Below are positions 14,636-45,840 of a stretch of 58,800 nucleotides of DNA, piece by piece. The stretch's first letter is position 1; the number at the start of each line of letters is the position of its first letter. The notes beneath the pieces were generated by a model. The model did not search any database. It saw only the letters and a program-made list of their open reading frames with translations, and was not told the origin of the DNA. Source of the DNA: Prevotella sp. (GTDB taxonomy: Bacteria > Bacteroidota > Bacteroidia > Bacteroidales > Bacteroidaceae). Location of the stretch: the NCBI GenBank assembly GCA_017556145.1, contig JAFZCU010000201.1, positions 1 to 58,800 on the forward strand. Reading direction: 5' to 3'. The position numbers and the translations under genes are program-made.

Positions 14636-16111
14636 ATGAAACGATTACGCATCATCTTGGTCATAGCCTCTGTTCTCTCACTTCTTGGGAATGAGGCTTT
14701 GATGGCACAATCATATAAGGTTGGCGTTTGCGACTGGATGATTCTCAAGCGCCAGAAATTGGGAGAATTTGATTTGGCTAAGCAGATTGGCTGCGACGGC
14801 ATAGAGATGGACATGGGCGGACTGGGACAACGCGAGCTGTTCGACAACAAGATGCGTGACGACCAGGAGGCCCGGCATTTCAAACACGTGGCCGACAGCT
14901 TAGGCATCGAGATTGGTGCCATCGCCATGAGCGGTTTCTATGCCCAGGACCTGACGAAGCGCGACAACTACATGGCACTGGTGGAGGATTGCTTCGACAC
15001 AATGGATAAGATGATGGTGAGTACCAATCATCTGGGCGGTGTGAAGGTGGCGTTCTTGCCCCTTGGCGGCTGCGGTAATGACTGGAGCACGGACAAGGTC
15101 AAGCGTGCGGAGGTGGTGAAACGGCTGCACAATATCGGTGAGGCTGCCAAGGCGCGTGGCAAGCGGGTGGGTATCGACACCCCCCTTGATGCCAAAGGCA
15201 ACCTGAAACTGTTGAAGGAGATCAAGAGCGACGGTATCGCCATCTTCTACAAATGGCAGACCATCGTAGAAAACGGCTGGGATGTGGTGAAAGATCTCAA
15301 GAAACTGGGTGCCAAGAATATCTGCGCCATCCATGCGTCGAACACAGACCGTGTGTGGCTGCGCAACGACTCCACCCTCGATGTGCCACAGATCAGGAAA
15401 GCCCTCGACGAGATGGGCTGGAGCGGTTGGCTGTTTGTGGAACGGAGCCGCGATGTGAAGATGGTGAAGAACGTGAAGATGAACTACAGTGCCAATGTGT
15501 ATTATCTGAAAGAGATCTTCAACAGCAATCCGGAGCCCGCTGTTGTGCTCGACAGCGAGGGACGGGATCCTGACTATGTGAAGACCATCATCAGCCGTTC
15601 ACAGAAAGCCACTGACGAACTGGGCATCACCTGGACACCCATGGGACAGAACGTGCTGAATATCATCTGCAACCGCTATTTCAAGCTGAATGACATCTAT
15701 GCTGAGCGCGATTCCATCAAGCAGTCGGACAAGCAACTCGCGGAGGCACAGTGCGACGCGAAGCTGTATCGTTCGCACTGGGGATTCCTCACCGACCTCT
15801 CGATGTATCTGAAGCCACAGGAGATCGACAAGGTGAAGGACGTGATGACCTACGATGTGGTGAAGGTGACCTACGAGGCGCAGTGCGACATGATCCCGAC
15901 CCTGAAGGAAGAAGAGAAGCAACAGATCATGGCGTGGCTCATCGAAGCACGGGAACTGGCTATCGATGCCGAGAGTTCGAAAAAGAAGCACGAGGTGTTC
16001 GGCAAGTACAAGGGGCGCATCAACAACTACCTGACCAAGCGCGGCTACGACCTGACGAAAGAGCGCGAGGCGTGGTATGAACGTGTCAAGGCAAGAGGAG
16101 GGAAACTATGA
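14636..16111 (+). CDS. Periplasmic xylose-isomerase-like TIM barrel fused to DUF3826
   Basis: 491 residues with signal peptide MKRLRIILVIASVLSLLGNEALMAQ. Residues about 27-310 are a sugar isomerase/epimerase-type TIM barrel (YKVGVCDWMILKR, IGCDGIEMDMGG, AKARGKRVGIDTPL, ICAIHASNTD, LDEMGWSGWLFVERSRD). Residues about 325-491 match DUF3826 (MTYDVVKVTYEAQCDMIPTLKEEEKQQIMAWLIEARELAIDAESSKKKHEVFGKYKGRINNYL, cited by its region). A secreted isomerase-like barrel is unlikely to be a classical sugar-phosphate enzyme. DUF3826 recurs in pectin-type loci; its reaction is unknown to me. The gene overlaps GH127 by 4 bases. Confidence 0.75.
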   Translation: MKRLRIILVIASVLSLLGNEALMAQSYKVGVCDWMILKRQKLGEFDLAKQIGCDGIEMDMGGLGQRELFDNKMRDDQEARHFKHVADSLGIEIGAIAMSGFYAQDLTKRDNYMALVEDCFDTMDKMMVSTNHLGGVKVAFLPLGGCGNDWSTDKVKRAEVVKRLHNIGEAAKARGKRVGIDTPLDAKGNLKLLKEIKSDGIAIFYKWQTIVENGWDVVKDLKKLGAKNICAIHASNTDRVWLRNDSTLDVPQIRKALDEMGWSGWLFVERSRDVKMVKNVKMNYSANVYYLKEIFNSNPEPAVVLDSEGRDPDYVKTIISRSQKATDELGITWTPMGQNVLNIICNRYFKLNDIYAERDSIKQSDKQLAEAQCDAKLYRSHWGFLTDLSMYLKPQEIDKVKDVMTYDVVKVTYEAQCDMIPTLKEEEKQQIMAWLIEARELAIDAESSKKKHEVFGKYKGRINNYLTKRGYDLTKEREAWYERVKARGGKL

Positions 16112-18174
16112 GAAAACTGATAATGACAGGCTTGGCGATGGTGATGAGTATCAGCGCGCAGGCACAGGACAAGGGACTGACTGACATGGGAAACAGTCAG
16201 GAGGCGAAGATGAAGAACACACCTCTGGGGGCAGTGAAATGGACGGGCGGTTTCTGGGGAGACCGCTTTGGTGTGCTCAGTCAGACGACCATCTGGGACA
16301 TGTGGGACACCTGGAACACCCCGTGGGAGACACTCGATGAGAAAGGTGCACACGGCAGCAACGGTTTCCGCAATTTCGAGGTGGCAGCAGGTACGGTAGA
16401 GGGTAAGCACCATGGCCCTCCTTTCCACGACGGTGACATGTATAAATGGCTCGAGGCCTGTGCTGCCGTCTATGCCGTGACCAAAGACCCGAAGCTCGAT
16501 GCCCTGATGGACCAATTTATTGAGCAAGTGGCACTGGCCCAGCGGAATGACGGCTATATCCATACGCCCGTGGTCATCTCCGAACGTAACCTCGGCATCG
16601 ACTCGCATGCGGGCGACAACACCAATATCGGCATAGAGATCGGCGAAGACCACAAGAAAGCCTTTGCCTCGCGACTGAACTTCGAGACCTACAACCTCGG
16701 TCACCTGATGACCGCTGGCATTGTGCATAAGCGTGCCACAGGCAAGACAACGCTTTTCGATTGCAGCAGGAAAGCCGCTGATTTCCTCTACAACTTCCTC
16801 ACCAACGATGCGGCAGAACTCTCGCGCAACGCCATCTGTCCGAGTCACTATATGGGTGCTGCCGAGATGTATCGCGAGACGGGTGAAACGAAATATCTGA
16901 CGCTGGCGAAAGGTCTGATTGCCATCCGCGACTCCGTGACCAATGGCGAGGACCATAATCAGGACCGTCATAAGCTGCGCGACCAATACGAGGCGATGGG
17001 GCATGCCGTCAGGGCGAACTATCTCTATGCGGGCGTGGCAGACCTCTATGCGGAGACCGGTGAGGCGCAGTTGATGAAGAACCTGGAGGCCATCTGGAAC
17101 GATATCATCCAGCATAAGATCTATATCACTGGCGGTTGCGGGGCCCTCTACGACGGTGTCTCACCCGACGGCACCACCTACGACCAGCCCAGCATCCAAC
17201 AGATCCATCAGGCATACGGACGGCAGTTCCAGTTACCCCAGGAAGCCGCCCATAATGAGATCTGTGCGCAGATCGGTATGCTGCTGTTCTCGTGGCGGAT
17301 GTTCCAGACCACCGTTGATCCGCAGTATGTCGACATCATCGAAACCGAGCTATATAACGGCATCCTCAGTGGTATCTCGCTCGATGGCAGGGACTACTTC
17401 TATACCGAGGCCCTGCGCCGCACGAAGGAGTTCCCCTACGTGATGCGCTGGCCCAAGCACCGTCAGCACTATATCTCCTGTTTCTGTTGTCCGCCAAACA
17501 CCGTGCGCACCCTCTGCGAGGCGCAGGAATATGCCTACTCTATCAATAAGGATACGCTCTGGGTAAACCTCTACGGCGAGAACAGTCTGACGACCAAAGA
17601 CCTTGAAGTGGAGCAGCATACCAACTACCCCTGGGACGGCCATATCACCCTGACTATCAAGAAGGCGAAGACATTGAAGAGCATCCGTATGCACATCCCT
17701 GGCTGGAGTACGGATATGACACTGAAACTGAATGGGGAACCGATCTTGGCAGAGGACCTGCGTCAGCCCCGGAAATGGAAGAAGGGCGACACGATTGAAC
17801 TCGACCTGCCCATGGAGGCCCGACTGGTGGAAGCCAACCCGTTGGTGGAAGAGGCCAAGAACCAGATTGCCGTGATGCGCGGACCGATTGTCTATTGTCT
17901 TGAAGGACAGGACATTGAAGGAGGCCATCGCATCAACGACATCGCTATCCCAACAGACATCCAGTTCACAGAAAAGAAGATTACCATCAGTGGTCATGAG
18001 ATGGTAGCCCTTGAGGGCGATGCGGTATTGGTGAACCAGTTGCCGTGGCACAGCAACATGCTCTACCGGGAGCTGCGACCAGCTAAGAAGCAAAAGGTAC
18101 GTATTCGTCTGATTCCCTACTATGCTTGGGACAACCGAGGCATTCAGGATATGAGTATTTGGTTGAACAGATGA
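16108..18174 (+). CDS. GH127 glycoside hydrolase (beta-L-arabinofuranosidase or aceric acid hydrolase type)
   Basis: 688 residues with signal peptide MRKLIMTGLAMVMSISAQAQ. GH127 enzymes use a Zn-bound cysteine nucleophile. Here NEICAQIG supplies Glu384 and Cys386, and CFCCPPN supplies Cys460 and Cys461, matching the Glu-x-Cys and Cys-Cys arrangement known from HypBA1 (Glu338, Cys340, Cys417, Cys418) with nearly the same spacing. The region GGAVKWTGGFWGDRF-like near residue 40 and the alpha/alpha barrel also fit. Members include beta-L-arabinofuranosidases and, in B. thetaiotaomicron, an aceric acid hydrolase acting on RG-II. Sequence alone does not separate the two. It overlaps both neighbours by 4 bases. 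Confidence 0.88.
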   Translation: MRKLIMTGLAMVMSISAQAQDKGLTDMGNSQEAKMKNTPLGAVKWTGGFWGDRFGVLSQTTIWDMWDTWNTPWETLDEKGAHGSNGFRNFEVAAGTVEGKHHGPPFHDGDMYKWLEACAAVYAVTKDPKLDALMDQFIEQVALAQRNDGYIHTPVVISERNLGIDSHAGDNTNIGIEIGEDHKKAFASRLNFETYNLGHLMTAGIVHKRATGKTTLFDCSRKAADFLYNFLTNDAAELSRNAICPSHYMGAAEMYRETGETKYLTLAKGLIAIRDSVTNGEDHNQDRHKLRDQYEAMGHAVRANYLYAGVADLYAETGEAQLMKNLEAIWNDIIQHKIYITGGCGALYDGVSPDGTTYDQPSIQQIHQAYGRQFQLPQEAAHNEICAQIGMLLFSWRMFQTTVDPQYVDIIETELYNGILSGISLDGRDYFYTEALRRTKEFPYVMRWPKHRQHYISCFCCPPNTVRTLCEAQEYAYSINKDTLWVNLYGENSLTTKDLEVEQHTNYPWDGHITLTIKKAKTLKSIRMHIPGWSTDMTLKLNGEPILAEDLRQPRKWKKGDTIELDLPMEARLVEANPLVEEAKNQIAVMRGPIVYCLEGQDIEGGHRINDIAIPTDIQFTEKKITISGHEMVALEGDAVLVNQLPWHSNMLYRELRPAKKQKVRIRLIPYYAWDNRGIQDMSIWLNR

Positions 18175-19967: not shown

Positions 19968-22027
19968 ATAAAGCCACATGGATCTGGTATCCCGGCGACT
20001 TCGAAATCTGGCTGGGAAATATCTTCAACAACCGTCGCACAGAACGTGGGGCGATGTTTCCGCCGTTCTGGAAACAGGACTCGCACTGGGTGACGGTGGC
20101 GTTCTCTAAATGCTTTGAACTGGAGGAGAGCGAAACGATTGCCATCGCCTGTGAGGGACAGTTCAACCTTGCACTCGACGGGAAGTTGCAGTTTGGCATG
20201 CCAAAGACTTTTGAGATGCCTAAAGGCAGGCATCAGCTGAATATCAAGGTGTGGAATCAGGTAACGCCCCCAGCCCTCTTCATCGAAGGCAAGACCATCA
20301 AGACCGACAGTTCATGGCAGGTCACCTACGAAGATAAGATCTGGATCGATGAGAATGGGGTGGCCCATGGGTCTGGGGTGTATGTCCCTGCCGCCTCATG
20401 GCATTTCAACAGCATCGACACCCCACCATCAGCCTATCACCTCGAGCGTGAGGAACATTGTCCTGCATCTGGTGAGGCCATAACAACAAACGGAACCCTC
20501 TACGACTTCGGGCGTGAGACCTTCGGTTATCTGAAAGTGAAGGGGCTCAAGGGCTGTGTCCGTATCTACTATGGCGAAAGCCGCGAGGAAGCCCTCGACA
20601 AAGACCATTGCGAAACACTGGATGTCCTGCATGAGGGCGAGGCTTTATGCAGCAAGGCCTTCCGCTATGTCTACATCGAGAAAGAGGCAGGCGCCACCTA
20701 CGACGAGGTGTTGATGGATTATGAATACGCTCCCTTCGACTCGCAGCAGAGCGGGTCCTTCCGTTGCTCTGACGAAGAACTGAACCGTATCTGGGAGGTG
20801 GCCGCCTATACGATGGACCTGACGACACGTGAGTTCTTCATGGACGGTATCAAACGCGACCGTTGGACATGGAGTGGCGATGCCATCCAAAGCTATCTGA
20901 TGAACTATTACCTGCGTTTCGATACCGAGTGCGTGAAGCGCACCATCCGACAGTTGCGAGGCAAAGACCCCGTCACCGCCCATATAAACACCATCATGGA
21001 CTATACCTTCTATTGGTTTAAGTCGGTGTCAGATTACTATGAATATACAGGAGATGCCGCGTTTGTCTGTGAGATGTGGCCTCGGATGGTGTCACTGATG
21101 GACTATGTGCTGAGCCGGACCAACGCCGATAGCTTGGCAGAGGGCAGACCCGACGACTGGATCTTCGTGGACTGGGTGGATTTCCCCATGCACAAGCGCG
21201 GCACCCTCGCCTTCGAGCAGATTCTCTTTGCCAAAGCCTTGGAAACGATGGCGCGTTGTGCAGAGATTGTATCAGAGTATTCGGAATGTTCAGATTACTC
21301 CGAACAATCAGAGTATTCGGAAAAGGCCGCCCATGTGCGCAAAAAAATCAAAGAGCTCTTCTGGGATGAAGAACAACAGGCTTATCTGCATGCCATTGAG
21401 GACGGTCATCTGAATCCCCAGGTCACCAAATTCCCCAATATGTTTGCCATCATCTACGGACTATCGGATGACAGCGAATGTCAGCAGATCATGCAGCATG
21501 TGATGCTCAATCCTGCTATTGCCCCCATCACCACCCCCTATATGCGTTTCTACGAACTGGAAGCCCTCTGTATGATGGGACAGCAGTCGAAAGTATTGCC
21601 CGAGATCAAAGCCTACTGGGGCGGGATGCTGCGCGAAGGTGCCACCTCGTTCTGGGAGAAATACAACCCTGAAGAAAAAGGCACCCAGCACCTGGCGATG
21701 TATGGTCGGCCATACGGAAAATCGCTCTGTCATGCCTGGGGAGCCTCGCCTATCTATATCTTAGGGAAATATTTCCTTGGCGTGAAGCCCACCAAACCAG
21801 GCTACGAGACCTATGAGATCCGTCCGACCCTCGGTGGTCTCAGCTGGATGGAAGGTGAAGTGCCGACACCCTTCGGAAAGATTTCCGTCAAGATGAACGA
21901 CCAGCACATCACCGTCCGTAGTGATGGCGGGCACGGTACCCTTATCGTCGGCAGACAACGTATTGACATCCCTGCCGGAGAGGTTATTACTGCCGAAACG
22001 ATTGAACACGACAACGACAGGCTATGA
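19964..22027 (+). CDS. GH78-type alpha-L-rhamnosidase, apparently cytoplasmic
   Basis: 687 residues with no signal peptide (starts MNKATWIWYPGDFEIWLG). Beta-sandwich domains occupy about 1-265, an alpha/alpha barrel about 270-610 and a C-terminal Greek-key domain the rest. FFMDGIKRDRWTWSGD (Asp294, Asp299) corresponds to the GH78 acid box, and GATSFWEKYNP (Glu565) to the conserved Glu base box. A low-complexity stretch SEYSECSDYSEQSEYSEK (about residues 437-453) interrupts a barrel helix region and is coded by a DNA repeat. The lack of an export signal implies that it acts on imported rhamnosides, unlike its neighbours. It overlaps flanking genes by 4 bases on both sides. Confidence 0.82.
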   Translation: MNKATWIWYPGDFEIWLGNIFNNRRTERGAMFPPFWKQDSHWVTVAFSKCFELEESETIAIACEGQFNLALDGKLQFGMPKTFEMPKGRHQLNIKVWNQVTPPALFIEGKTIKTDSSWQVTYEDKIWIDENGVAHGSGVYVPAASWHFNSIDTPPSAYHLEREEHCPASGEAITTNGTLYDFGRETFGYLKVKGLKGCVRIYYGESREEALDKDHCETLDVLHEGEALCSKAFRYVYIEKEAGATYDEVLMDYEYAPFDSQQSGSFRCSDEELNRIWEVAAYTMDLTTREFFMDGIKRDRWTWSGDAIQSYLMNYYLRFDTECVKRTIRQLRGKDPVTAHINTIMDYTFYWFKSVSDYYEYTGDAAFVCEMWPRMVSLMDYVLSRTNADSLAEGRPDDWIFVDWVDFPMHKRGTLAFEQILFAKALETMARCAEIVSEYSECSDYSEQSEYSEKAAHVRKKIKELFWDEEQQAYLHAIEDGHLNPQVTKFPNMFAIIYGLSDDSECQQIMQHVMLNPAIAPITTPYMRFYELEALCMMGQQSKVLPEIKAYWGGMLREGATSFWEKYNPEEKGTQHLAMYGRPYGKSLCHAWGASPIYILGKYFLGVKPTKPGYETYEIRPTLGGLSWMEGEVPTPFGKISVKMNDQHITVRSDGGHGTLIVGRQRIDIPAGEVITAETIEHDNDRL
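21271..21321 (+). repeat. ATCAGAGTATTCGGA direct repeats inside the GH78 gene
   Basis: The exact 15-base unit occurs at 21271-21285 and 21307-21321. Between them lies TTCAGATTACTCCGA (21289-21303), which recurs exactly at 27585-27599 inside another enzyme gene. In both genes it is read in the same frame as Ser-Asp-Tyr-Ser. Confidence 0.85.
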
Positions 22028-24714
22028 GACGAACGATACTACTGTGCATCACCCTGGCCATGACGGCAACAATGGCGGCTCGCGGGCTTACCATCAAGAC
22101 TCGCGACAATGCTACTGAGCGCGAGAAATATGCTGCTGAATACCTGCAGAAGAAACTCACAGGCAAAGCGTTCGACGGCTATACGGTGACACTCAAACTC
22201 AGAAGCAAGACTGACCATTACACGCCCTCAACCCAAGGCTATCACATCACGAGACTCACCAGCCACCACATCACTATCGAGGGCTATGATCCCTCAGGGG
22301 TGATCTATGGTGCTGTAGAGCTGGCCGAGCGTCTCCTCAGTCGTCGTCTCACCAACACAGATATCAACGAATGGCCACAGATGACGATGCGCGGCACCTG
22401 CATCGGACTTCAGAAAACCACCTATCTGCCAGGCCATAGCGTCTATGAATATCCCTATACGCCAGAGAACTTCCCCTGGTTCTACGACAAAGAACTGTGG
22501 ATACGTTACCTCGACATGATGGTAGAAAACAAATTCAATTCCCTCTACCTCTGGAACGGGCACCCCTTCGCCTCGCTTGTCAAACTCAAAGAATATCCCT
22601 TCGCTGTGGAAGTCGATGACGAGACCTTCAGCAAGAACGAGGAGATGTATTCGTTTCTGACACGCGAGGCCGACCGTCGGGGTATCTGGGTAATACAGAT
22701 GTTCTATAATATCATCCTGAGCAAACCCTTTGCCGACCACTACGGGCTGAAGACACAGGACAGGAACCGTCCTATCACGCCGCTCATCGCCGACTACACG
22801 CGCAAAAGCATCGCCGCATTCATCGAGAAGTATCCCAACGTGGGACTCCTTGTCTGTTTAGGCGAGGCGATGGCCACCATCGAGGATGATGTAAAATGGA
22901 TGAAAGAAACGATTATCCCTGGGATTAAAGACGGGCTCGCTGCCAGCGGTGTTAAGTCTGTGGCTGTGGCACAGCAACAAACACAACAGCTGCCACCTAT
23001 CGTGTTGCGCTCGCACGATACCGACGGGCCGCTCGTGCTCCGCGAGAGCCTGCCGCTCTATCCGAATATCTACACCATGTCGAAGTATACGGGCGAGAGT
23101 CTGACCACTTACGAACCTGGCGGACCGTGGGGCGAGACACATCGCCAATTGGCCGATGTAGCGCCTGTACATATCGACAACGTACATATCCTTGCCAACC
23201 TCGAACCCTGGCGCTGGAGTAGTCCGCTCTTCATCTGGAAGACCGTCCGCGCCATGCATCGCGTACATCACTCGAAAGGCCTGCACCTCTATCCGCAAGC
23301 CTCCTATTGGGACTGGCCCTACACCGCCGACAAACTGCCTGATGGCGGAAGGCTCCTGCAGATAGACCGAGACTGGATGTGGTACAAGGCTTGGGGACGC
23401 TACGCTTGGAATGACTTTTATCCTGACGAGGACGACGAAGACGACGACTATTGGTTACAGGTTCTCTCCGACTACTACGACATCACTCCAGGCGCTGCAG
23501 CCAATCTCCTCATGGCCTACAACGAGGCTGGCGAGATTGCGCCAAAACTATTGCGTCGCTTCGGCATCACCGAAGGGAATCGCCAGACACTGCTGCTGGG
23601 TATGACAATGGCACAGTTGGTGAATCCCTACAAATTCAACATCTATTCTGGGTTTTACGAAAGCTGTGGACCTCAGGGCGAGAAGCTCATTGAATATGTA
23701 GAGAAAGAGATCAAAGGCGAAAAGCATGTGGGAGAACTGCCCCTTTCCATCGTCGACCAGTGTGTGCGTCACAGCAGGAATGCTGTAGACAAAATGACAA
23801 AAGCCATGAGGGAAAAGCCCACCCGTCATGCTGATGAGTGGCAACGGGTGTGGCAGGATTTCTGGTGCTATAATAAGTTCGCGATGTCGTTCCGCTGGAA
23901 GGTGATGGCCGCAGATCAGGTGCTGCTATATAAATGGACGAAAGACATCAAATACCTCGATGCTGCCGTGCCTCTGTTGGAGAAAAGTCTGGAGCAATGG
24001 CGCTACCTGAGCAGTAAGACCGACAGCATCTATCTCTACGCCAACTCGATGCAGACCTCGCAACGACGCATCCCCATTGGTGGCGACAACGGGCACTTCA
24101 AGACCTGGAGCGAGATGCTGCCGGTCTACGAGGCAGAACTAGAGGCCCTCAAAGCCAACATCGAGAAGCTTAAAAACCCCGTAGCTCAGAATACCGTGCC
24201 GCCTGCTGCTGTCAAGCCCGCAGTTGTTGGATATGTTGCTGTGGCACAGCAACAAACAGAACTCCGAAAAGGCGCCATCCTCTTCGAGAACCGTGAGGAT
24301 ACAAAAGTAGACTCACTCGCACCAGAACTCGTTGGGCTGCAGGCCCTCGTGCTGAACCGCGACACGACCCGCATTGTAGGCACATCCGTCACATTCGACA
24401 CAGAGAAACCCGTGAAGATGCTCGTGGGCTTCTTTCAAGACGATGACCCCAAGTGGGCCAAAGCCCCCAAGCTCGAAGTGGATGCCACAGGCAATGAATA
24501 CGGTCAGGCAGAGCCCATCCTCACAAATGCCATCAGCATCATCCAGATGCCCCTTGTGAATATCCATGCCTACCACTTCCCCGCAGGTCATCATACTATC
24601 AACCTGCCCAAAGGAATCATCATGATTGCGGGTTTCACGGCAGACTATATCAAGTCGCGCGACGTAGGACTGCAAGGCGTTGGGGATGAGGTGGACTGGC
24701 TATTTAAAAGGTAA
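22024..24714 (+). CDS. GH67/GH20-like glycoside hydrolase, family unassigned
   Basis: 896 residues with signal peptide MRRTILLCITLAMTATMAARG. Residues about 22-110 form the alpha/beta domain that precedes GH20 and GH67 catalytic barrels (TEREKYAAEYLQKKLTG, GVIYGAVELAERLL). A TIM barrel follows (MRGTCIGLQKT, LDMMVENKFNSLYLWNGHPF, IWVIQMFYNIIL, VGLLVCLGEAMATIEDD, PIVLRSHDTDGP), then a helical region (500-720) and a C-terminal beta domain (740-896). It is usually annotated as an alpha-glucuronidase-like or hexosaminidase-like enzyme, but I cannot assign the substrate. Two copies of a palindromic DNA element are inserted in-frame, encoding VAVAQQQT at about 313-320 and 737-744; the first lies inside the barrel just before IVLRSHDTD. 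It overlaps the GH78 gene by 4 bases. Confidence 0.6.
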   Translation: MRRTILLCITLAMTATMAARGLTIKTRDNATEREKYAAEYLQKKLTGKAFDGYTVTLKLRSKTDHYTPSTQGYHITRLTSHHITIEGYDPSGVIYGAVELAERLLSRRLTNTDINEWPQMTMRGTCIGLQKTTYLPGHSVYEYPYTPENFPWFYDKELWIRYLDMMVENKFNSLYLWNGHPFASLVKLKEYPFAVEVDDETFSKNEEMYSFLTREADRRGIWVIQMFYNIILSKPFADHYGLKTQDRNRPITPLIADYTRKSIAAFIEKYPNVGLLVCLGEAMATIEDDVKWMKETIIPGIKDGLAASGVKSVAVAQQQTQQLPPIVLRSHDTDGPLVLRESLPLYPNIYTMSKYTGESLTTYEPGGPWGETHRQLADVAPVHIDNVHILANLEPWRWSSPLFIWKTVRAMHRVHHSKGLHLYPQASYWDWPYTADKLPDGGRLLQIDRDWMWYKAWGRYAWNDFYPDEDDEDDDYWLQVLSDYYDITPGAAANLLMAYNEAGEIAPKLLRRFGITEGNRQTLLLGMTMAQLVNPYKFNIYSGFYESCGPQGEKLIEYVEKEIKGEKHVGELPLSIVDQCVRHSRNAVDKMTKAMREKPTRHADEWQRVWQDFWCYNKFAMSFRWKVMAADQVLLYKWTKDIKYLDAAVPLLEKSLEQWRYLSSKTDSIYLYANSMQTSQRRIPIGGDNGHFKTWSEMLPVYEAELEALKANIEKLKNPVAQNTVPPAAVKPAVVGYVAVAQQQTELRKGAILFENREDTKVDSLAPELVGLQALVLNRDTTRIVGTSVTFDTEKPVKMLVGFFQDDDPKWAKAPKLEVDATGNEYGQAEPILTNAISIIQMPLVNIHAYHFPAGHHTINLPKGIIMIAGFTADYIKSRDVGLQGVGDEVDWLFKR
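22959..22979. repeat. Palindromic element, copy A
   Basis: Ten-base arms around a central G (22969), with one mismatch (22962 with 22976). The core is GGCTGTG G CACAGC and it is followed by an AACACAAC tail. It lies in-frame in the GH67/GH20-like gene and reads V-A-V-A-Q-Q-Q-T. Confidence 0.85.
24234..24254. repeat. Palindromic element, copy B
   Basis: Perfect palindrome with arms TGTTGCTGTG and CACAGCAACA around a central G (24244) and an AACAGAAC tail. It lies in the same gene and the same frame as copy A (V-A-V-A-Q-Q-Q-T), in the linker before the C-terminal domain. Confidence 0.9.
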
Positions 24715-24741
24715 AAAAGTAAAAAGGTAGAAAGGTAAAAA
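24706..24741 (+). repeat. GGTAAAAA-type repeat at the start of the propeller-GH2 gene
   Basis: AAAAGGTAAAAAAG-like units run from the end of the previous gene to the next ATG at 24742. The reverse complement (GCCTTTTTACCTTT) lies inside the new gene at about 24797-24810, so the transcript could fold around the start codon. Confidence 0.75.
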
Positions 24742-31385
<6,644 letters not shown>

Positions 31386-43635: not shown

Positions 43636-45840
43636 ATGATGAAAAGGCTTCTCTCCATCCTCTGTTTCATAAGTACATTCGCAGTCGTCAATGCCGACTA
43701 TATCCCACGCGACTACGTCTGGACCTCGCAAAGCCGGAACGCCAGCGAGTCGATGCCCTGCGGAGGTCACGATATCGGTATGAACGTATGGGTGGAAGAT
43801 GGTGATGTGCTCTTTTACATTCAACAGGGTGGTTGGTTCGACGAGAACAATACGCTTCTGAAAGCGGGTCGCTGGCGTCTTCATTTTGACAGTAGGTCTC
43901 TCGACAGCAAAGATTTCGAGCAGCGGCTCAATCTCGACGAAGGCGCCATCTATATCAAAGGCGGTGATCTGGAAGTGAGAATCTGGGCTGATGTCGAGGA
44001 GCCCGTTGTGTATGTTGCGATGGCATCGCAACATGCAGAACAGGTCACACTCAGCTACGAAAGCTGGCGCTACAAGGACCGCCCTGTGTCGAAAGCCGAA
44101 TGCCAACAGTGCTCCTATAAATGGATCATCCCTAAAGACTGCAAGACTTTCGCCGACAGTATCATGGCCGAAGGCGACAGACTGACTTTCAGCCATCAGA
44201 ACAGGAAAGAGACGGTGTTTGACTTCACCGTAGAACGGGAGCGCATGAACAGTGTGAAAGACCAGCTCTATAATCCTATAGGCGGGTTGAAAATGAAAGG
44301 GGTGATGTATGCTCCCGGCTTTCATTATGCAGGTATAACTACAGGAGATTATGCCGGCACTGACTATCAGGCATGGAACTATTCCTGCAAGGACCTTCAG
44401 TCCTCTTGCATCATCATCGATCTGCGCTATCTGAACCATCAGCGCTACGAGGAAACGGTCATCGACGGTTGTGGCACTGTAGCTCCGTACGCATTCCCCT
44501 CTCTGAAAGCCAGCGACTCACACAAGCGCAGCGCACAATGGTGGCATAACTTCTGGCAGCGCAGTTGGATACAAATAGACACCGATGACGAGGCCGCTCG
44601 TACGATGGTACGCAACTACGAACTGATGCGTTATCTGCTGGGCTGCAATGCCTATGGTCAATGGCCCACGAAATTCAATGGCGGACTCTTTACGTTTGAC
44701 CCCGTTTATGTGGACTCTACTGCCACTTTCACTCCCGACTACCGCAAATGGGGCGGCGGCACGATGACAGCACAGAACCAACGACTCGTCTATTGGCCTT
44801 TGCTTAAAAGTGGCGACTACGACCTCCTCCGATCTCAGCTCGACACCTACCTGCGGATGCTACCCAATGCCGTTGCATGGTCACGCCAACATTGGGGACA
44901 TGAGGGGGCTTGTTTCAGCGAACAAATCGAAAACTTCGGACTACCCAACCCCGCTGAATACGGCAAGCATACCGATGACAGCGACTGGGGAGTGGAGAAT
45001 AACAAATGGTTAGAATATGAGTGGGACACTGCATTGGAGTTCTGTCAGATGGCTGTACTAATGCGTCCATGGTACCCCGATTCTACGTTAGAAAAGTATC
45101 AGGCACTCATCGACGAGACCCTGCGTTTCTTCGACAAGCACTATCCAAATCTTATCATCTTCCCTGGCTCCGGTTGCGAGACGTATAAGATCGCACGCAA
45201 CCCCTCCAGCACCATTGCCGCCCTTCATGCAATGAAAAACAGTCTCGACAACATTGGTATAGACACCAGTATCATTCCCGATATCCCTCTGCAGATCATC
45301 GACGGTGACACCTGTATCGCTCCTGCCGAGCACTGGGAACGCATCCAGAACACCGAGACGCCCCAACTCTATCCTGTATTCCCTTGGCGCATCTACGGTG
45401 TGGGAAAACCGCACCTCAACATCGCCCGCAATACCTATTTTAAGGATCCGCACGCCTTGGAGATGCGCAGTACGAAGGGCTGGAAACAAGACAACATCTG
45501 GGCTGCCTGCTTAGGTTTGACCGACGAAGCGAAATGCCTGAATACCGAGAAGTTAAGCAATGGTCCCTACCGTTTCCCTGCTTTCTGGGATGCTGGGTTC
45601 GACTGGGCACCTGACCACAATCGTGGGGGGGCCGGTATGATTGGTCTGCAGGAGATGCTGCTCCAGGAAGACCTCGACCACAATCCCATCCTCTTCCCTG
45701 CTTGGCCCCGCGAGTGGAACTGCCGCTTTCGTCTCTATATCTCAGGTCAGCGCTGCGTCGACGGGGAGATTAAAGATGGAAAAATCACTTACACCATCGA
45801 TGGCGTTGATTACTCCAACGATAACGAATTAATACCTTGA
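43636..45840 (+). CDS. DUF5703-type, GH95-like alpha/alpha barrel enzyme
   Basis: 734 residues with signal peptide MMKRLLSILCFISTFAVVNA. The start DYVWTSQSRNASESMPCGGHDIGMNVWVEDGDVLFYIQQGGWFDE is the DUF5703 N-terminal beta-sandwich pattern, which parallels the N-terminal domain of GH95. The C-terminal two-thirds are a six-hairpin alpha/alpha barrel (GGLFTFDPVYVDSTATFTPDYRKWGGGTMTAQNQRLVYWPLLKSG). In RG-II loci a GH95 enzyme is an alpha-L-galactosidase; other GH95 members are alpha-L-fucosidases. I infer a glycosidase for an L-sugar, without certainty that this divergent branch is active. Three bases separate it from the esterase gene. Confidence 0.7.
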   Translation: MMKRLLSILCFISTFAVVNADYIPRDYVWTSQSRNASESMPCGGHDIGMNVWVEDGDVLFYIQQGGWFDENNTLLKAGRWRLHFDSRSLDSKDFEQRLNLDEGAIYIKGGDLEVRIWADVEEPVVYVAMASQHAEQVTLSYESWRYKDRPVSKAECQQCSYKWIIPKDCKTFADSIMAEGDRLTFSHQNRKETVFDFTVERERMNSVKDQLYNPIGGLKMKGVMYAPGFHYAGITTGDYAGTDYQAWNYSCKDLQSSCIIIDLRYLNHQRYEETVIDGCGTVAPYAFPSLKASDSHKRSAQWWHNFWQRSWIQIDTDDEAARTMVRNYELMRYLLGCNAYGQWPTKFNGGLFTFDPVYVDSTATFTPDYRKWGGGTMTAQNQRLVYWPLLKSGDYDLLRSQLDTYLRMLPNAVAWSRQHWGHEGACFSEQIENFGLPNPAEYGKHTDDSDWGVENNKWLEYEWDTALEFCQMAVLMRPWYPDSTLEKYQALIDETLRFFDKHYPNLIIFPGSGCETYKIARNPSSTIAALHAMKNSLDNIGIDTSIIPDIPLQIIDGDTCIAPAEHWERIQNTETPQLYPVFPWRIYGVGKPHLNIARNTYFKDPHALEMRSTKGWKQDNIWAACLGLTDEAKCLNTEKLSNGPYRFPAFWDAGFDWAPDHNRGGAGMIGLQEMLLQEDLDHNPILFPAWPREWNCRFRLYISGQRCVDGEIKDGKITYTIDGVDYSNDNELIP

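Follow-up and report, generated by a model that had tools for sequence, protein, structure and literature searches.

The 58,800-nucleotide contig JAFZCU010000201.1 of Prevotella sp. (assembly GCA_017556145.1), analysed over its whole length and called here the window, carries several copies of a palindrome that is read in frame inside predicted enzymes. This palindrome is probably a repetitive extragenic palindrome (REP) element belonging to a REP-associated tyrosine transposase (RAYT) system of Prevotella. Comparison between genomes documents its insertion into genes, its dispersal across the genus, the keeping of the reading frame in loops and linkers, and the presence of matching palindromes in RAYT genes.

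Palindromes in the RAYT genes of the genus

A first reading of the window, termed here the original prediction, had advised looking for a gene of the TnpA-REP type. This advice was right for the genus: relatives possess RAYT genes, and the palindrome is found inside them. The protein matches the NCBIfam family REP_Tyr_transpos with an E-value of 1.5e-10 and 41 bits, below the cut-off of 80, and the Pfam family Y1_Tnp only at E 0.074. A RAYT match (E ≤0.001) is present in 111 of 200 genomes of the genus. All 14 best-scoring loci (L179-L192) harbor an in-frame internal palindrome, with at most two changes, between the HuH and tyrosine motifs of the nuclease. A second palindrome lies nearby in 13 of the 14, located 11-30 bp past the stop codon in 12 cases and 140 bp past it in one; locus L190 has no second copy. 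In a second RAYT clade (L193, L196, L197, L198, L201, and L203), the second copy is read in frame at the RAYT C-terminus. The arrangement by which REP/RAYT systems are recognised, a gene with HuH and tyrosine motifs flanked by its own REPs, is found in these relatives.

A broader set of 70 RAYT loci was reduced to 64, as four had no open reading frame (ORF) and two no tyrosine motif. A perfect palindrome occurs between the HuH and tyrosine motifs in 42 of the 64 (16.3 kb), against seven matches in 38.0 kb elsewhere in the same ORFs, tails excluded. Among these 42, 23 also carry a palindrome in their flank or tail, with the same core in 19. The palindromes of 48 RAYTs were assigned to 13 types by hand, a few from the flank or tail copy, leaving 16 of the 64 rows untyped; on a RAYT tree, which carried a long-branch warning, these types require 16 changes where the minimum possible is 12. 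The palindrome type mostly follows the RAYT clade, different clades having different palindromes. Type 2 (GTTGCGTTG) is found in 16 of the 200 genomes (reversed control, 1), 15 of which have some RAYT match, not necessarily of type 2, the exception being G353. Genome G333 holds 26 type-2 copies and a single type-1 match, and its RAYT (L206) carries type 2. In G412, a genome consisting of one contig, both RAYT palindromes display the same paired variant.

The HuH and tyrosine motifs are invariant in six diverse RAYTs. Across the Prevotella RAYTs, they read PDH[LFI]H and mostly YLxDNP, with no W motif seen, in open frames of ~300-440 residues. The RAYT of G404 (L386) has, after its internal palindrome, a tandemly repeated ATQQTGQ-like peptide. 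Beyond the tyrosine motif, the Prevotella RAYTs extend by a C-terminal domain of ~150 residues. A class-wide scan returned a RAYT match in 111 of 295 genomes; among the class matches listed, nearly all stop short of this domain or at its start. One further match, G599:C21:50523-50882, covers the C-terminal domain only, in an ORF of 164 residues lacking the nuclease part. Pfam returned nothing convincing for this domain, and its best PDB profile matches are DprA chains at E 0.06. Profile-profile comparison with five, then six, of 13 fetched DprA loci, the others having failed the motif filter, gives a probability of 4% and P ~0.01 in the DprA register, which is not significant. A relationship between the RAYT C-terminal domain and DprA is possible at best.

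Dispersal of the palindrome and insertion into genes

The window forms the entire contig C134 of a 3.46-Mb assembly of 242 contigs, 82.7% complete. A 23-base query, allowing up to three mismatches, has seven matches in the window, both strands counted, and none in 100 shuffles. Over the whole genome, the query has 34 matches on both strands (none for the reversed pattern), which reduce to 20 different sites, all within ORFs of at least 335 residues. The original prediction had proposed that absence of the palindrome from the rest of the genome would speak against it; the palindrome recurs at these 20 sites. Some of the host ORFs we take, from their translations, to encode a fused aspartokinase, a carbamoyltransferase, an ABC transporter, and a methylmalonyl-CoA mutase; others are presumably an isoleucyl-tRNA synthetase (IleRS), GH97 enzymes, and a TonB-type receptor. 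Such assignments are tentative, except where Pfam or PDB searches were run or homologs were fetched. At three places in the same genome (C80:5609, C105:2386, and C228:44816), longer compound elements are found in frame, in which part of the palindrome is extended by GC-rich sequence containing additional small inverted repeats.

With at most one mismatch, the palindrome matches in 73 of the 200 genus genomes and in none of the other 127. At least two matches occur in 53 of the 73 and at least three in 39, with a maximum of 15. As a control, the reversed pattern matches one to three times in 28 of these 200 genomes, so lone matches may be due to chance. A stricter pattern matches in 10 of 301 genomes sampled from the family. 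Palindrome and RAYT matches occur together in 58 of the 200 genomes, the palindrome alone in 15, RAYT alone in 53, and neither in 74 (Fisher p 1.8e-7, uncorrected for kinship, and with RAYT matches that include other subfamilies). This co-occurrence is partly built in, since some RAYT genes themselves carry the palindrome. A Y1_Tnp match, present in 9 of 12 palindrome-rich genomes, has little meaning by itself. Eight uncultivated viral contigs (L209-L216) contain the exact 21-base palindrome in frames that are short or unclear; in three of them (L213, L214, and L215), the copy is read VAVxQQ in a short open frame. A search of the viral contigs for a RAYT relative found none.

The window copies all lie on the forward strand. 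Four of them, A to D, had been described in the original prediction, and their positions, as well as the paired T-A to C-G changes of copies C and D, are confirmed on the sequence; the count was incomplete, a fifth copy, E, having been overlooked at 18039-18057. Copies A (22951-22987, core 22960-22978) and B (24226-24262, perfect core 24235-24253) belong to the same ORF, 22024-24714, without Pfam family, where they are read SVAVAQQQT and VAVAQQQT, respectively. Copy C (28189-28225, core 28198-28216, one T-A to C-G pair change) is read VAVAQRQT in a GH2/malectin ORF (24742-28617), and copy D (29050-29086, core 29059-29077, a different T-A to C-G pair change) is read SCRGTATNK in a LacZ-type GH2 ORF (28614-31385). 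Copy E (18030-18066, core 18039-18057) is degenerate, with one arm changed, and is read QLPWHSN in ORF 16108-18174, assigned to GH127 by Pfam. Copies A and C present the 37-bp element described below; B, D, and E have degenerate outer parts, on the 5' side in B and D.

Relatives of the host proteins reveal what these sites look like when empty. Seven of the eight relatives aligned at site A (L313, L314, L315, L316, L318, L319, and L321) lack the 10 codons found in the window, and the eighth (L312, from G337) has a different insert, an inverted repeat of a C-run and a G-run. At site D, five of six relatives (L308, L309, L311, L313, and L320) lack 10 codons and L317 lacks nine; the two PDB beta-galactosidases with printed alignments have no insert there. 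These alignments indicate that sites A and D arose by insertion, not by substitution. Repeat-free homologs sharing the peptide by ancestry, an outcome that the original prediction had held to be damaging, are not what is found at A and D, where such homologs lack it. At site B, a palindrome with a paired change is present in G328 (L308), and none was seen in the other aligned relatives. At site C, G306 (L309) holds a related copy, L310 a degenerate one, and L308 other palindromes. Since relatives hold other palindromes at sites A and C, more than one kind of palindrome uses some of these loops. In the region of L308 matching copy C, two related palindromes with GCTGACAGG...CCTGTCAGC-like ends are found in frame in the same linker; they probably represent yet another element family.

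Other repeats accompany these copies. A palindrome of a related type (44005-44041, forward strand), with core GTTGCGATGGCATCGCAAC at 44014-44032 and similar outer parts, is read VAMASQHAEQ in ORF 43636-45840 (DUF5703). The same type occurs inside an ORF elsewhere in the genome (C212:3702-3720), with close relatives in G246 and G456. Two gene-border stretches of the window of ~37 bp, 24706-24742 and 28624-28661, match several other genus genomes at 89-97% identity and are probably a dispersed repeat. In five ORFs (L278, L279, L281, L282 from G467, and L050), the palindrome stands just 5' of a DLQGR-containing stretch, as though the linker at this position were favoured.

Element structure, reading frames and the IleRS loop

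The dispersed, stem-keeping palindromic insert read in more than one frame that had been proposed stands, but the element is longer than described. It is a 37-bp imperfect palindrome with the consensus GTYC-N-GTNT-GTTGCTGTRNYACAGCAAC-ANAC-N-GNAC. The consensus sequences of both main reading frames have identical borders, nine bases on each side of the 19-bp core. A size of 20-50 nt and dispersed copies, as expected of REPs, are found here in a 37-bp element with 20 sites in one genome.

Pooling of distinct copies with at most one mismatch from the fetched loci, which are not a random sample, yields 139 copies. Stretches open for at least 200 residues contain 117 of them, against 1172 of 1390 positions chosen at random within these loci; 22 of the 139 lie outside such stretches. 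The counts are 86 of 96 without the RAYT loci and 81 of 91 when the IleRS loci are also left out. The original picture of an element specific to genes is not borne out by these figures, the genic share being that of random positions; equally, the mostly extragenic location expected of REPs is not observed. Among the last 81 coding copies, 49 are read VAVxQQQ, 26 CCCxTAT, and six LLxHSN. No stop codon interrupts the GGC-centred 19-bp core in any of the six frames, and the consensus 37-mer is free of stops in five. Of the 37-bp copies, 101 of 139 are open in five or six frames, against ~13% of shuffled sequences and 34% of random palindromes, although selection ensures one open frame for copies within ORFs.

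Paired changes keep the stem. Among copies with exactly two changes, 12 of 20 have complementary changes at partner positions, against 2.2% expected for random changes; the count omits loci fetched for the paired variant, and of the 12, L265 and L277 were fetched via a wider pattern and a single RAYT locus (L191) contributes two. The middle pair of 143 copies is Watson-Crick in 103 and G-T in 13, against 76 Watson-Crick pairs expected if the two positions were independent.

The IleRS loop between YANVD and PEID illustrates how one protein site is used in different species. It was compared in 81 sequences, namely that of the window's genome and the best 80 of a larger number. Six of them carry a type-1 palindrome (that of the same genome, L102, L109, L122, L136, and L137), with one arm changed in L102 and L136. 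Other palindromes fill the loop in L121 (GTTGCGACCAAGTCGCAAC), L178 (GTTGCGTTGGCAACGCAAC), and L132 (GTCGAGGCTCAGCCTCGAC), and CCTCCCC-type repeats in L152, L173, and L176; other short inverted repeats in L130, L133, L149, and L174 were left untyped and scored as none. With the loop excluded, a quick IleRS tree requires six changes for the six type-1 rows and 12 for the 12 rows with named types, gain being indistinguishable from loss in this parsimony. The nearest row to that of the window's genome, L099, with 96% identity, has no palindrome. Common descent as the sole source of the shared site is disfavoured by the six changes for six bearing rows and by the empty loop of L099. Compared with the commonest empty loop, the filled loops have gained only one to four codons net, for an element of 37 bp; insertion was therefore accompanied by replacement or later trimming.

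Known systems and alternative explanations

Among known systems, the closest counterpart is subclass 2.4 of TnpA_REP (RAYT group 4). As described in PMC6006769, REPs of this subclass flank tnpA and also occur within the gene, in frame, between the HuH and Tyr motifs; the palindromes have a double foot, Bacteroidetes are among the hosts, and a table gives the motifs NH[IFV]H, WQ, and YIxNNP and a length near 194 residues. The Prevotella RAYTs resemble it by the in-frame REP between HuH and Tyr (14/14 best loci; 42/64). They differ in the outer parts of their palindromes (GTYC/GNAC and GTNT/ANAC), in the motifs PDH[LFI]H and mostly YLxDNP without a W motif, and in the extra domain of ~150 residues with open frames of ~300-440. 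In other Bacteroidia, where 30 loci were looked at, an internal inverted repeat is found in nine of 23 readable RAYTs, two of them with GTAG...CTAC ends.

Intragenic REPs have precedents. GTAG and CGTC REPs lying wholly inside ORFs of known enzymes are reported from several species, and in Xanthomonas recB different REPs occupy about the same place (PMC3733652); the Prevotella IleRS loop, with its different palindromes in different species, is similar in this respect. The GTAG/CGTC REPs are mostly intergenic according to that source, whereas the Prevotella copies are genic as often as random positions. In-frame REPs within tnpA, and REPs within other genes, are thus already on record (PMC6006769, PMC3733652). 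The Prevotella system differs from known REP/RAYT systems in the foot, the RAYT motifs, the added C-terminal domain, and the lack of gene avoidance. No paper on this RAYT/palindrome system was recognised in the open-licence literature, which does not imply its absence from print.

In E. coli, TnpA_REP, a HuH tyrosine nuclease working on single strands, is reported to cleave single-strand REPs in vitro and to join them again (PMC8266576). The Prevotella palindrome likewise stands beside the gene of a HuH tyrosine nuclease, and because of this published activity we infer a similar course. The RAYT, having one catalytic tyrosine, would recognise the single-strand hairpin form of the palindrome, probably at replication forks, and would cut and join it, copying it to new places and spreading it at exposed single strands. 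Insertion would take no account of genes; selection would remove copies that disrupt the frame or damage the protein, and those in tolerant loops would stay, mostly in the frames VAVxQQQT or CCCxTAT. The GGC-centred core, open in all six frames, would aid the survival of copies within genes. Most simply, the element would be a selfish or domesticated REP passenger.

Several observations weigh against a REP/RAYT origin. RAYT searches of the window's own genome, 82.7% complete, found no RAYT of this kind. RAYT matches are likewise lacking in 15 of the 73 palindrome-bearing genomes, six of which, besides the window's own, have four or five palindrome matches. G316 and G411, with five and four matches, have a completeness of 90% and 94%, so gaps in the assemblies may not account for every absence. 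Copy number reaches ~20, far below the ~six hundred REPs of E. coli K12 (PMC8266576). In G412, contrary to expectation, no other exact copy of the paired variant of its RAYT was found. Finally, a GTAG or GT[AG]G foot is absent, the consensus of the 49 and 26 coding copies reading GTYC and GTNT. E. coli REPs, mostly intergenic and ~six hundred in number, have a GTAG foot and a conserved stem bulge according to the same source, and the Prevotella element has neither foot nor bulge. The sole Y1_Tnp match of the window's genome (C81:4618-4977), a transposase-like ORF of 282 residues with an NHVH motif, was not reported by the RAYT searches and is not taken as the mobiliser.

These absences bear on the foremost alternative, an improbable one, in which the palindromes are passengers akin to the Rickettsia palindromic elements (RPEs), spread by some other route (e.g., hairpin template switching in replication) and merely landed also in RAYT genes. 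RPEs are in-frame palindromes within genes of functional proteins (PMC3733652), and the Prevotella palindromes are likewise found in frame within genes, in proteins whose function is predicted from sequence. The likeness to RPEs drawn in the original prediction is borne out as that of an in-frame, stem-keeping dispersed insert. The window's genome and 14 other palindrome-bearing genomes without a RAYT match would fit such passengers, as would the frequent replacement of sequence on insertion (one to four codons gained in IleRS for a 37-bp element). However, the palindrome type mostly tracks the RAYT clade, the copies occupy one fixed place in RAYTs, and palindrome and RAYT co-occur genome-wide. 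Unlike RPEs, the Prevotella palindromes are carried by a transposase family; RPEs are not known to have a cognate transposase.

A role at the RNA level, through ribosome skipping (bypass) or a hairpin tuning expression in the mRNA, is quite unlikely. In folding of the 37-mers against shuffles, copies B and C (z = -2.49 and -4.67) fold better than nearly all shuffles, D is intermediate in value (-1.56), but A and E (-0.42 and 0.82) fold no better than shuffles. Furthermore, the copies within ORFs are in frame and stop-free, as expected if they are translated, and 22 of the 139 lie outside 200-residue open stretches. Even less probable are protein-binding operators or chromosome-organising sites arisen inside genes by point mutation: long near-perfect palindromes, five within ~11 kb of the window, would suit them, but the empty sites at A and D point to insertion, and 127 of the 200 genomes have no match. 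Selection of the peptide as a useful protein linker, with the DNA palindrome as a by-product, could account for the strong frame bias (49/26/6 of 81 coding copies) but is hardly credible, as three frames are used in different genes, palindromes of several types, encoding different peptides, occupy the IleRS loop, and the stem is preserved by paired changes even when a residue is altered (Q to R in copy C).

The REP/RAYT reading has a bolder version, which is doubtful. It pictures a REP system that would have abandoned its extragenic habit. A Prevotella RAYT fused to a DprA-like single-stranded DNA (ssDNA) domain would write palindromes with few stops, if any, in all frames into replicating DNA, replacing short stretches; loops of essential proteins such as IleRS would be repeatedly overwritten by competing RAYT types, and the internal palindrome would act as a specificity tag. 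If this were true, an ssDNA transposase would be a lasting source of new protein loops.

For Prevotella, a major rumen genus, the REP/RAYT reading would link many in-frame palindromic inserts of enzymes to identifiable transposase genes. VAVxQQQT-like peptides in Prevotella proteins are probably such inserts and not conserved motifs. The several palindrome types tied to RAYT clades would offer a test bench for REP movement and target choice, and IleRS provides the case of a housekeeping protein in which one loop is filled by different palindromes in different species.

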